Position numbers and translations under genes: made by a program
DNA from: Gemmatimonadota bacterium
Lineage (GTDB): Bacteria; Gemmatimonadota; Gemmatimonadetes; Longimicrobiales; Gaopeijiaceae
DNA: 48,538 nt
Direction: 5' to 3'
Assembly: GCA_007121775.1 (NCBI GenBank)
Contig: SKJY01000002.1
Coordinates: forward strand, 1-48,538
The notes under the pieces: generated by a model
Told to the model about the DNA's origin: nothing
What the model saw: only the letters and a program-made list of their open reading frames with translations
Database searches by the model: none
In this document: positions 29,895-34,157 of the stretch, in pieces
Position numbering within the stretch: the stretch's first letter is position 1
Layout: each line of letters opens with the position of its first letter

Positions 29895-30522
29895 GGGCCA
29901 TACCCTCCACCTCGTCCAGGAAGTTCTCCAGAAGCCGGAGGCCCGGCGCCGAACTCTTCTCCGGGTGGAACTGAACGCCCCAGCACCGTCCCCGGCGCAC
30001 CGCCGCGGCGAAGCGGTCGTGCCCGTAGGTGGAGGTAGCCAGGGTGTAGGCTGCGTCAGTGGGTTCGCAGACGAAGGAGTTGGCGTAGTAAGCGGTCATC
30101 TGGGGGAGTCCCCGGAAGAGGGGGTCATCCATCTCACCGGCCTCCACGTCGTTCCACCCCATCTGGGGCACCGTCCGGGCCCGGATGCGACGCACCTGCC
30201 CGGGGATGAACCCGATGCCTTCCCCTTCCGACTCCTCGGAGGTGTCGAAGAGGAGCTGCATCCCCAGGCAGATGCCCAGGCAGGGGAGCCCTTCTTCCAG
30301 CGCGTCCCGGACCCGGGCCTCTTCCCCCGCCAGCGCCCCCACCGCCGCCCCGAAGGAGCCCACTCCCGGAAGAACCAGCGCCTCCCGGGCCAGTGCCTCA
30401 TCCCAGCGGGTGGTGACGGTGACCCGTGCGCCTCCCGCCTCGAGTCCCTTGGCCAGGGAGTGGAGGTTTCCGGCCCCGTAATCGAAGAGGGCCACATCTA
30501 TCGGTCTGCTTCGCTCGCTCAT
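29887..30522 (-). CDS. hisH: Imidazole glycerol phosphate synthase glutamine amidotransferase subunit
   Basis: VALFDYGAGNLHSLAKGLEAGG, LPGVGSFGAAV, LPCLGICLGMQLLFDTSEES, QFHPEKSS; start set at MSERSRPID (30522). Confidence 0.96.
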   Translation of the reverse strand: MSERSRPIDVALFDYGAGNLHSLAKGLEAGGARVTVTTRWDEALAREALVLPGVGSFGAAVGALAGEEARVRDALEEGLPCLGICLGMQLLFDTSEESEGEGIGFIPGQVRRIRARTVPQMGWNDVEAGEMDDPLFRGLPQMTAYYANSFVCEPTDAAYTLATSTYGHDRFAAAVRRGRCWGVQFHPEKSSAPGLRLLENFLDEVEGMAHE

Positions 30523-31634
30523 GCCCGTATTCCGTCCAGTGCGTTCAGGAACCGATCCATCTCTTCCCGGGGGCCGATGCTCACCCGGATGGCGTCGCCG
30601 ATGCCGGGAAGATCGGGGAAGGGGCGCACCGCCACCTCCCGGTCCCGGAGCGCCGCCGTCACCGCCGCCGCCGTGGGCTCCACCGTGAGGGATGCGCCGG
30701 TCAGGGGGACGCAGAGGAAGTTGGCACCGGAGGGGAGGGGCGTCAGCCCCCGCCGGACCAGCTCGTGGGCCAGACGGGTCCGTTCGACCTGCACCGCCTC
30801 CAGGATTCCGGGGATCCATCCGGGCGCGTCGCGCACCGCCGCCACCCCCGCGGCCTCCGCCATCCGGTTCACCTTGTAAGGTCCCCTGGACTTCTCAAGC
30901 TCCCGGATCACCTCCGGCGCTCCCACCGCGAATCCCACCCGGAGTCCGGCGAGTCCGTACACCTTGGATAGGGTCCGGAGCACCACCAGACGCCGGGAGC
31001 CGGCGGCGGCCCGCAGAAGGCTGTCCGGGTCTTCCACCTGCGGATCCAGGAAGTCGGCGTACGCCTCGTCCACGGCCACCACCGTGCCCCTGGCCTCCGC
31101 CTCCCGAATCACCTCGTCAACCCAAAGCCGGGGCTGCACCTCTCCCGTGGGGTTGTTGGGGCGACAGAGATAGACCAGCGCCGGGCTCCCCTCAAAGAGC
31201 TTGACAGGCTCAGGGAGCGCGCCGAAGGGAGCCTCGGGCCCTGCCCCGCCGTCCCGCTCCAGGGGCATGGCCCGGAGCCCGTTCATCGTGGCGAAGATCT
31301 CGATCATGGAGAAGGTGGGGGGGAGGTAGCGCACTCCCTCCCCCTGGATTCCCGCCGCCCGGAAAAGGGAGTCCAGGAGATCATCGGAGCCGCAGCCGGT
31401 GCTCACCGCCTCCATGGGAACTCCGAAGCGCTCGGCCACCGCTCGGCGCAGATGGTCGGCGTAGACCGGCGGGTAGCGGAGGAAGTCCTCCGCCGAGGCG
31501 GCCTGGACAGCGACCACGGCGTCGGGGTGGACGCCCCAGCGATTCGTATTGTCGGACAGGTCCACGGCAATGGGACGCCGGTCTGGTGCGTAGGGCTCCA
31601 GGGGCGCGTAGTCGGGACGGGGGAAGGGTGTCAC
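30519..31634 (-). CDS. hisC: Histidinol-phosphate aminotransferase
   Basis: LSDNTNRWGVHP, CRPNNPTGEV, VDEAYADFL, RTLSKVYGLAGLRVGFAVG. Confidence 0.95.
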   Translation of the reverse strand: MTPFPRPDYAPLEPYAPDRRPIAVDLSDNTNRWGVHPDAVVAVQAASAEDFLRYPPVYADHLRRAVAERFGVPMEAVSTGCGSDDLLDSLFRAAGIQGEGVRYLPPTFSMIEIFATMNGLRAMPLERDGGAGPEAPFGALPEPVKLFEGSPALVYLCRPNNPTGEVQPRLWVDEVIREAEARGTVVAVDEAYADFLDPQVEDPDSLLRAAAGSRRLVVLRTLSKVYGLAGLRVGFAVGAPEVIRELEKSRGPYKVNRMAEAAGVAAVRDAPGWIPGILEAVQVERTRLAHELVRRGLTPLPSGANFLCVPLTGASLTVEPTAAAVTAALRDREVAVRPFPDLPGIGDAIRVSIGPREEMDRFLNALDGIRA

Positions 31635-33082
31635 GGGGTCTCCTCTGCTGTGTCGGTGCCGTCCGCGCCTGACCCCGGGAGGGTCTCCCCTGCCCCGGCG
31701 TCCCGTCGTGCTTCCGACCCTGTTCCGGCGTCCCGTCGTGCCTCCGACCCCTCTCCGCGGGCCCGGGCTGCTGCGGCGTGTCCGGGGAGCCCCTCGGCGT
31801 CGGCCAGGAGCCCCACATCCTCCGCCATGCTCCGGGCGCCCTCCTGGCTCAGCTTCTGCCAGGTGAAGAAGCGGAGGAAGTCCAGCACCGAGAGTCCAGA
31901 GAAGGAGCGGGACCGGGCCGAGGTGGGCAGGACATGGTTGGCCCCGGTGATGTAATCGCCGAAGGCCACGGTGGAGGCCTCCCCCAGGAAGACCGTGCCC
32001 GCCGTGGTCTGCTCTTCCAGGTCGGCCTGCGGGTCCCGGGTGAAGATGGCCAGGTGCTCGGCGGCGTACTCCCGAGCGAAGGCCATGGCCTGGGCCCGGT
32101 CAGCCGCCAGGATCAGGGCACCCCGGTCCGCCAACGCAGTCCGTACCACCTCCCGCCGGGGCGCCACCTCAACCTGGCGAGCGAGTGCCTCCCTGATCCT
32201 GTCCAGGAGTTCAGGAGACCACGTCACCGCCACCACCGCCGCTTCCGGATCGTGCTCGGCCTGGGCAACCAACTCCATGGCAACCCGCACCGGATCGGCC
32301 TCTCCGTCGGCCAGGACCAGAACCTCGGACGGGCCGGCGGGAGAGTCGATGCGGAGCTCTCCCGCCACCTGCCGCTTCGCCTCGGTGACCCACTGATTTC
32401 CGGGGCCCACGATGGCCTCCACCCGGGGCACCGATGCGGTTCCATAGGCCATGGCTCCCACCGCACCGGCCCCGCCCAGGGCGAAGAGGCGGGTCGCGCC
32501 GGCCAGGGCGCAGGCGGCCATCACCTCCGCCGGGGGCTCACCGGAGGGCCCGGGCGGGGAGCAGACCACGATCTCCGGCACCCCGGCTGCACGGGCCGGA
32601 ACCACACCCATGAGAACGGAGGACGGGTACGCGGCGCGTCCACCTGGGGCGTAGACTCCCACCGCCGGGAGGGGGGTGCTCCGGCGACCCAGGCGTACGC
32701 CGGGCTCTGTCTCCACCTCCACATCGGCGGGGATCTGAGCCCGGTGGAAGGTGTCGATGTTCCGGACCGCCCGCTCCAGTGCCAGACGCAGCCCCTGGGG
32801 GAGTGTGTGGAGGGCGTGGAGCCACCGCTCCCGGGGGATCTCCAGGCCGGGGAGGTCCACGCCGTCGAACTCCCGGGCCATGGCCATGAGGGCCTGGTCC
32901 CCGTCACGACGGACCCGGAGGAGGAGACCCCGGACCTTGTCCCGGAGGGTGTCTTCATCCAAGGGGCGGCGGTCCACCAGGCGGCGGCGGGTGGCCCCAT
33001 CCATCCCGTCCAGGGCACCGTCGAAGGCCAGGGTGGGGGGTGAGGCCGGGGTCTCGGGAGTCACGGGGGGCTCGGGAGTCAC
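31631..33082 (-). CDS. hisD: Histidinol dehydrogenase
   Basis: GVYAPGGRAAYPSSVLM, IVGPGNQWVTEAKRQVAGELRIDSPAGPSEVLVLAD, AEHDPEAAVVAVT, YAAEHLAIFT; low-complexity C-terminal tail. Confidence 0.97.
   Translation of the reverse strand: MTPEPPVTPETPASPPTLAFDGALDGMDGATRRRLVDRRPLDEDTLRDKVRGLLLRVRRDGDQALMAMAREFDGVDLPGLEIPRERWLHALHTLPQGLRLALERAVRNIDTFHRAQIPADVEVETEPGVRLGRRSTPLPAVGVYAPGGRAAYPSSVLMGVVPARAAGVPEIVVCSPPGPSGEPPAEVMAACALAGATRLFALGGAGAVGAMAYGTASVPRVEAIVGPGNQWVTEAKRQVAGELRIDSPAGPSEVLVLADGEADPVRVAMELVAQAEHDPEAAVVAVTWSPELLDRIREALARQVEVAPRREVVRTALADRGALILAADRAQAMAFAREYAAEHLAIFTRDPQADLEEQTTAGTVFLGEASTVAFGDYITGANHVLPTSARSRSFSGLSVLDFLRFFTWQKLSQEGARSMAEDVGLLADAEGLPGHAAAARARGEGSEARRDAGTGSEARRDAGAGETLPGSGADGTDTAEETP
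31695..31754. repeat. 30-bp tandem duplication in the hisD 3' end
   Basis: CCGGCGTCCCGTCGTGCYTCCGACCCYKYT twice (31695-31724, 31725-31754), encoding SEARRDAGTG / SEARRDAGAG. Confidence 0.8.
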
Positions 33083-33942
33083 GGCAGAAGCCTCTCGATG
33101 CGGGTGACCAGGATGCCCTCGGCGCCGAGGGCCTTGAGGCGGGCGATGGTGTCGTAGAGTTCGTCCTCATCCACCACCGCGTGGGCGGCGACCCAGCGAC
33201 CCTGGTCCAGCACATCAACGATGGTGGGGCCGCTGATCCCGGGAAGGACCCTCCTCACCTCATCCAGGCGGTCCCGGGGGACGTTGGACATGAGGTACCG
33301 CTTCCGCCGTGCCCGAAGGACCGATTCCAGCGCCGTGGTCAGGTCGGATGCGACCCGCCGGGCATCGTCGACCTCCAGCGCCTTGGTGTTGGCCACCAGG
33401 CGGGCGCTGGAGTCCAGAATGGTTCCCACCTCCCTCAGTCCGTTCACCCGAAGGGTGGACCCGGTAGAGGTGAGGTCGACGATCACATCCGCCACGCCCA
33501 GGTGCGGAGCGATCTCCGCGGCGCCGGAGACGGGGACGACGCGGATCGCGGTGCCCAGCGAGGCGAAGTAGCGCTTCGCCAGCCCTGGAAAGGAGGTCGC
33601 CACTCGCGTCCCCTCCGGGAGCTCCGCCGGGGACTGGACCGGGCTCTCATCCCGGACCGCCACGATGAGGCGGCACTGGCCGAAGCCCAGATCCAGGAGT
33701 TCCTCCACCTCGGGGCGTGCATTCTCCTGCACAAGATCCGCCCCGGTGATGCCGAATTCGGCGGCACCGTCGGCGACGAACTCAGGGATATCCTGGGCCC
33801 GCACGAAGATGGCCTGGAAATGGCTTCCCAGTCGGGCCACCAGCGCCCGGTCAGCACGGAACTGGGCCCTCAGTCCCGCCTTTTCGAAAAGCTTGAGGGA
33901 TTCCTCCGAGAGACGGCCCTTATTGGGTATGGCGATTCTCAT
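33079..33942 (-). CDS. hisG: ATP phosphoribosyltransferase, long (HisZ-independent) form
   Basis: MRIAIPNKGRLSEESLKLFEKAGL, GITGADLVQE, DLTSTGSTLRVNGL, C-terminal regulatory-type domain (MSNVPRDRLDEVRRVLPGISGPTI). Start set at 33942, downstream of the attenuator; the 34011 start in the ORF track lies upstream of the terminator. Confidence 0.95.
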   Translation of the reverse strand: MRIAIPNKGRLSEESLKLFEKAGLRAQFRADRALVARLGSHFQAIFVRAQDIPEFVADGAAEFGITGADLVQENARPEVEELLDLGFGQCRLIVAVRDESPVQSPAELPEGTRVATSFPGLAKRYFASLGTAIRVVPVSGAAEIAPHLGVADVIVDLTSTGSTLRVNGLREVGTILDSSARLVANTKALEVDDARRVASDLTTALESVLRARRKRYLMSNVPRDRLDEVRRVLPGISGPTIVDVLDQGRWVAAHAVVDEDELYDTIARLKALGAEGILVTRIERLLP

Positions 33943-33967: not shown

Positions 33968-34005
33968 AAAAAAACGCGGCCCGTCCGGTCAGGGGACGGG
34001 CCGCG
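33968..34005 (-). terminator. his operon attenuator (intrinsic terminator upstream of hisG)
   Basis: Minus strand CGCGGCCCGTCC-CCTGACC-GGACGGGCCGCG-TTTTTTT: perfect 12-bp stem, 7-nt loop, U7, ending 25 nt before the hisG ATG. Confidence 0.93.
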
Positions 34006-34068
34006 GGGCATCCGGACCTTACGCGTGGCTGTTCTCGCTCAGCCGCACACCCCGCCCCGCACCCGCCC
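33994..34068 (-). promoter_or_regulatory. his antiterminator pairing (segments 2:3)
   Basis: GGGCGGG-U-GCGGGGC (34068-34054) pairs with GCCCCGC-GG-CCCGUCC (34009-33994): 7+7 bp with one GU and a 1x2 internal loop; overlaps the whole 5' arm of the terminator. Confidence 0.8.
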
Positions 34069-34122
34069 GCCATGGGGCGCGTGACGACGATGATGGACGG
34101 GGTGGAGCGATGCCTGACGCAT
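34039..34122 (-). CDS. hisL: his leader peptide, 27 aa with 5 His
   Basis: Read directly: ATG CGT CAG GCA TCG CTC CAC CCC GTC CAT CAT CGT CGT CAC GCG CCC CAT GGC GGG CGG GTG CGG GGC GGG GTG TGC GGC TGA = MRQASLHPVHHRRHAPHGGRVRGGVCG. Not in the supplied ORF track because it is short. Confidence 0.88.
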   Translation of the reverse strand: MRQASLHPVHHRRHAPHGGRVRGGVCG

Positions 34123-34128
34123 GGGGCA

Positions 34129-34157
34129 AAGCTAGACGGGGCGCCGGGACCGGTCAA
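34129..34157 (-). promoter_or_regulatory. his operon promoter
   Basis: Minus strand -35 TTGACC (34157-34152), 17-nt spacer, -10 TAGCTT (34134-34129); the 7th nt after the -10 is the A of the leader ATG (34122). Confidence 0.75.

Follow-up and report, generated by a model that had tools for sequence, protein, structure and literature searches.

Whether the histidine biosynthesis operon of a Gemmatimonadota bacterium is controlled by ribosome-mediated transcription attenuation is the question raised by the DNA upstream of hisG on contig SKJY01000002.1. The window (the whole stretch of 48,538 nucleotides that was analyzed) carries on its minus strand hisG, encoding ATP phosphoribosyltransferase (33082 to 33942; TIGR00070 [2.2e-64], TIGR03455, and PF01634), as the first gene of the operon, followed by hisD (31631 to 33082; TIGR00069) and hisC (30519 to 31634). 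The last was assigned with the help of its context, its best match (TIGR01141, 1.1e-68) lying below the curated cutoff. The closest named relatives of this hisG were found in Gemmatimonadota metagenome-assembled genomes, the nearest at 93% identity.

Upstream of hisG, on the same strand, a sigma-70-like promoter (34129 to 34157) was read from the sequence, with a −35 element TTGACC (34157 to 34152), a 17-nt spacer, and a −10 element TAGCTT (34134 to 34129). An open reading frame (ORF) of 27 codons (34039 to 34122) follows, from an ATG at 34122 to a TGA at 34041 to 34039. Its predicted peptide, MRQASLHPVHHRRHAPHGGRVRGGVCG, has His at positions 7, 10, 11, 14, and 17, and its assignment as a leader draws on sequence and conservation. 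The antiterminator would be formed by segment 2 (GGGCGGG-U-GCGGGGC, 34068 to 34054), which lies within the leader ORF, and segment 3 (GCCCCGC-GG-CCCGUCC, 34009 to 33994), with 14 bp. An intrinsic terminator (33968 to 34005) consists of a perfect 12-bp stem (34005 to 33994 with 33986 to 33975) and seven U residues (33974 to 33968). Segment 3 overlaps the 5′ arm of this stem (34005 to 33994) and is common to both structures, which makes antiterminator and terminator mutually exclusive in the window. The initial annotation had described the promoter, the 27-codon ORF with its five His codons, the pairing of segments 2 and 3, and the terminator with its U-run, and each of these was found in place. 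A search of the window's genome with a terminator-core pattern matched the his leader site only. A generic promoter scan of the window did not report the his leader promoter, which is attributable to the weak −10 hexamer (three of six consensus positions). In the interval that separates the his promoter from the upstream gene, an imperfect 15-bp inverted repeat (TGAAAATCTCAATCG and CGATTGAGAATTTCA; 34340 to 34291) with one mismatch and no T-run was also seen; it is possibly a terminator or an operator.

Taken alone, the signal in the window was moderately unusual at most. The leader fold had a z score of −1.92 (shuffle mean, −78.6 kcal/mol), the duplex of segments 2 and 3 had a P value of 0.085 against dinucleotide shuffles, and the switch score (stalled minus free) was equaled by 6% of synonymous recodings. 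These modest statistics reflect the GC-rich composition of the leader region, and the case for an attenuator therefore depends on comparison. For this, hisG relatives were gathered by name and from 125 genomes of the same family, and duplicates were removed; the resulting set spans three phyla, represented by Gemmatimonadota, Myxococcaceae, and two “Candidatus Eisenbacteria” genomes. Upstream sequence was long enough at 81 distinct hisG loci, and every one of them had a leader ORF with His codons and a terminator, in agreement with the conservation of His codons that the initial annotation had proposed to look for. At 80 of these loci, at least three His codons in a short ORF were followed by a terminator-like hairpin, with weak U-runs in two (L003 and L013), and the remaining locus (L034) has a leader with two His codons only, plus a terminator. 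A fixed rule for His-rich short ORFs returned 88, of which 79 were leaders and 9 were others, in 954 kb of both-strand sequence that was drawn from related loci and not from a whole genome.

Relatives without a His-rich ORF and terminator upstream of hisG had been named beforehand as evidence that would count against attenuation. This was contradicted at the 81 loci; the leader was absent, however, from two genomes with the usual HisG (G006 of genus g2 and G058 of genus g15), in which the upstream context of hisG differs. In two genomes of the group with a distant HisG (G037 and G038), a terminator-like T-run was present and no His ORF was found by the fixed rule, and no leader was found at the second, distant hisG copy of G055. 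Two loci carry labels at odds with their his regions, probably through mislabeling or contamination: L068 (Comamonas sp. KCTC 72670) is of the Myxococcus type, and L017 (Gammaproteobacteria Ww582) is of the Gemmatimonadota type.

Consensus folding by RNAalifold (18 and 37 leaders) recovered, besides the terminator, a short local hairpin linking the last His codons with segment 2. Among 37 Gemmatimonadota leaders, and with shuffle nulls that ignore relatedness, the terminator was 96% paired with 15 double changes (shuffle mean, 2.8) and the local protector was 91% paired with 26 double changes (shuffle mean, 10.1). Pairing in both helices dropped to 0.38 to 0.62 when the helices were slid. The antiterminator core was 85% paired in the same leaders, with 8 double changes versus 3.4 in shuffles, so that any covariation of segments 2 and 3 above shuffles appears weak. 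In the window and its sister locus L002, segment 2 is offset by three bases relative to most other loci; in L002, its second half keeps all seven pairs through one double change and three single changes or fewer. A test for covariation in the three helices had been proposed in the initial annotation; compensatory changes were seen in the terminator and local protector, with weak covariation in the antiterminator.

The protector itself differs from the one originally described. Within the window, the protector region (34048 to 34104) contains an outer helix of 10 bp with one G-U pair, CACCCCGUCC (34104 to 34095) with GGGCGGGGUG (34057 to 34048), and an inner local hairpin (34083 to 34075 with 34068 to 34060). 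The outer helix, which was the one first proposed, is present and forms in the minimum free energy fold of the window, but it is absent from the family consensus. Judged from these alignments, the conserved protector is not the outer helix but the local hairpin that involves the last His codons.

These pairings bear on a rival explanation in which the leader is translated and the main control lies in an arrest peptide, in Rho-dependent termination, or in a peptide acting in trans. The leaderless leader peptide peTrpL of Sinorhizobium meliloti has such a trans function (PMC7298713), and the C-terminal T-G-R-V is conserved here at both the peptide and RNA levels. Against this stand the strong, covarying intrinsic terminator with its U-run and the fact that the C-terminal conservation tracks RNA pairing. 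Protector columns 58 and 69 take six standard pair types and are paired in 35 of 37 sequences; they join a first codon position with the wobble position of a glycine codon, which points to selection at the RNA level. Control mainly by the peptide or by Rho was accordingly considered quite unlikely.

The energetics of ribosome-mediated attenuation were examined in an equilibrium model in which the nascent RNA ends before segment 4 and the bases covered by a ribosome are masked. For the window, the modeled probability that segment 3 pairs with the ORF was 0.03 with no ribosome, 0.78 to 0.91 with a ribosome stalled at His codons, and 0.08 with one positioned at the stop codon. The His-stall mask freed segment 2, and in the full leader the probability of the terminator was 0.99. 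Means over 80 loci were 0.31 for free RNA, 0.75 to 0.76 for ribosomes stalled at the first or middle His codon, and 0.52 for the stop codon, and the z score of the antiterminator duplex averaged −1.75. In L059, the antiterminator was highly probable even with no ribosome in the model. Discrimination between states by the equilibrium model thus fails in many relatives; the stop-codon value of the family is too high for a clean equilibrium switch, and kinetics would therefore need to matter. Synonymous recodings of 12 leaders often matched the stalled value, usually with a higher free value, which suggests that in these models the leader sequences have been selected for a terminated default state.

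The position of the promoter bears on how the leader would be translated. Of 79 loci, 74 have TTGAC at 34 to 41 nt upstream of the leader start, a count that may be somewhat inflated by the preference given to promoter spacing when start codons were picked. Elsewhere in the scanned upstream stretches, TTGAC occurred only five times. A −10 element of the form TAnnnT follows after a 17-nt spacer in the relatives. In the window, 6 nt separate the −10 element from the leader ATG, and transcription would therefore be expected to start at the A of this codon (34122). Based on this conserved spacing across loci, the leader mRNA looks leaderless, with a start site predicted at or near the start codon. 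Leaderless leader peptides have been described for trpL of S. meliloti (PMC7298713) and ilvBNC of Corynebacterium glutamicum (PMC11857589), and mycobacterial poly-Cys upstream ORFs are leaderless according to Canestrari 2020, as cited in PMC13236596. In all three, an amino-acid-sensing leader ORF lies at the 5′ end of the mRNA, as is predicted for the leaders described here; unlike the present leaders, they involve other amino acids and other lineages.

A covariance model (R1) was built from 63 leaders and searched against wider sets of genomes, a check that the initial annotation had suggested; training sequences match by construction. The leader proved widespread in Gemmatimonadota, with R1 matching 163 of 300 genomes at an E value of ≤1e-3 (128 at 1e-6, as counted from the table). 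At 1e-5, R1 matches were obtained in 51 of 144 genomes belonging to the same phylum as L038 (Pyxidicoccus) and in 7 of 47 belonging to that of L045 (Eisenbacteria). The his leader site was matched at 1.3e-20 in the window's genome, where the second-best match (2.6e-4, 72 nt) was regarded as noise.

Second R1 matches in Gemmatimonadota revealed leaders of identical layout with other regulatory codons. These included Phe leaders before prephenate dehydratase (pheA; L148 and L149, both from the window's genus, and L150), Tyr or Phe-plus-Tyr leaders before DAHP synthase (L152, L157, L160, and L161), Tyr leaders before phenylalanine 4-monooxygenase (phenylalanine hydroxylase; L154, L155, L156, and L159), and Thr leaders before homoserine kinase (L151) and aspartate kinase (L162). 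A second His leader was located before hisC (L146; G086:C210:21788-21937). Downstream genes were identified by profile for L148, L152, L154, L162, L146, and L151 and by reading-frame resemblance for the rest. Most of the Phe, Tyr, and Thr leaders have TTGAC about 36 nt upstream of the start codon, and several of the leaders found as second matches share the T-G-R stretch and the GCGGCCCGU terminator. The bases of the two arms differ in step, with GGACGGG/CCCGUCC for His versus CCACGGG/CCCGUGG for several aromatic leaders. In L151, TTGAC is missing and the terminator differs in sequence, so that this leader may be of separate origin. By the fixed rule, no Phe leader was found in the stretch fetched around pheA of the window's own genome. 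The contig that carries L146 also has a hisG leader, 9 kb distant, and the two are so alike that the cassette may have been duplicated. Another R1 match, L153 (G316:C27), has a leader, MLSSMLCHLKQLNPAAPRGGG, with no obvious run of regulatory codons, and the gene that follows resembles, by eye only, a ROK-type regulator.

A single leaderless Gemmatimonadota cassette, interchangeable between operons and derived from an ancestral switch whose specificity was altered by codon swaps, is a tentative reading of these leaders, at slightly less than even odds. The same tentative reading holds that the cassette has a 5′-terminal leader ORF whose His, Phe, Tyr, or Thr codons match the pathway and a segment 2 that encodes T-G-R (ACGGG core) and pairs with the GCGGCCCGU of a common terminator.

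The change of regulatory codons to Phe, Tyr, and Thr along with the downstream pathway also speaks against a T-box or riboswitch that senses tRNA or a metabolite and controls the terminator, with the ORF left untranslated. In Firmicutes and Actinobacteria, his operons are indeed under T-box control (PMC9413887); Rfam searches at the gathering score, however, matched no family, including His_leader and T-box, in the window and 13 related loci, and no relevant family was found in the window region at E values up to 10. Such an RNA was regarded as highly improbable here.

Among the genomes checked whose HisG, a short and seemingly unrelated form, is only about 33% identical to the query, most still have the His ORF, the TTGAC promoter, and a terminator, and the terminator sequence of these distant leaders (L111 to L117, L120 to L122, and L130) differs, being of a GCCGGC type. 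The idea that the terminator just ends transcription of the upstream gene, with a His-rich ORF arising by chance in GC-rich DNA, can be discarded: a same-strand upstream ORF does end at about 34419 and GC-rich sequence folds readily (shuffle mean, −78.6 kcal/mol), but the promoter separates that gene from the terminator, and the comparison of loci refutes the idea, with the His ORF, promoter spacing, and terminator conserved jointly before hisG at 81 distinct loci and kept also with nonhomologous or very distant hisG.

The reading best supported by the anatomy, the conservation, the covariation of terminator and protector, and the energetic feasibility is that the his operon is controlled by a classic ribosome-mediated transcription attenuator on a leaderless leader mRNA, and it was assigned a probability of roughly 0.92 from these sequence comparisons. 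Conservation at 81 loci and compensatory changes in the helices uphold the attenuation first proposed for this site; the transcription start, leader translation, ribosome stalling, and readthrough are predicted parts of the model. Transcription would begin at or beside the leader AUG, and a ribosome would load on the 5′ end with no Shine-Dalgarno site. With sufficient charged His-tRNA, the ribosome would reach the stop codon and the protector formed by segments 1 and 2 would re-form behind it, which would leave segment 3 available for the terminator, and RNA polymerase would halt at the seven U residues before hisG. With scarce His-tRNA, the ribosome would stall on the His codons (approximately codons 10 to 14) and cover protector arm 1, segment 2 would pair with segment 3 before segment 4 is synthesized, and the terminator would be prevented, so that hisG-hisD-hisC would be transcribed.

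The mechanism of his attenuation itself is known and classic. Like enterobacterial hisL (Rfam His_leader), the leader described here has a short His-rich ORF and a competing protector, antiterminator, and terminator, with the intrinsic terminator preceding the first his gene in both. The his leader peptide of Escherichia coli and Salmonella has 7 consecutive His in 18 residues (PMC3896937), whereas the His codons here are interspersed. In further contrast to hisL, the antiterminator arm is part of the leader coding sequence (codons for R-T-G-R in most relatives), the mRNA is predicted to be leaderless, and there is no Rfam match. A survey from 2010 held that leader peptide systems had been shown in Proteobacteria and Actinobacteria only, barring an atypical ermC leader, and itself reported a Firmicutes His leader (PMC2965389). 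Within Firmicutes, his attenuators have since been predicted for the Bacillus cereus group, Peptostreptococcaceae, and Erysipelotrichales (PMC9413887, 2022); like the present leaders, these precede his operons and combine a His leader peptide with hairpins for termination and antitermination. They differ in lineage and are likened to the present leaders by layout rather than sequence. No published his attenuator for Gemmatimonadota or Eisenbacteria was found in the literature covered, which was mostly nonsubscription, consistent with the novelty for this lineage that the initial annotation had thought possible. The lineage, the leaderless form, and the shared cassette appear to be new.

Amino acid attenuation, described mostly in Proteobacteria and Actinobacteria and in some Firmicutes, is thereby extended to Gemmatimonadota, Myxococcaceae, and Eisenbacteria, and R1 supplies a covariance model for a leader family missing from Rfam. 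The predicted leaderless his leader would be a clean system in which to test attenuation that needs no Shine-Dalgarno site. Its retention with very distant HisG, together with the leaders that carry other codons, would allow study of how specificity evolves.
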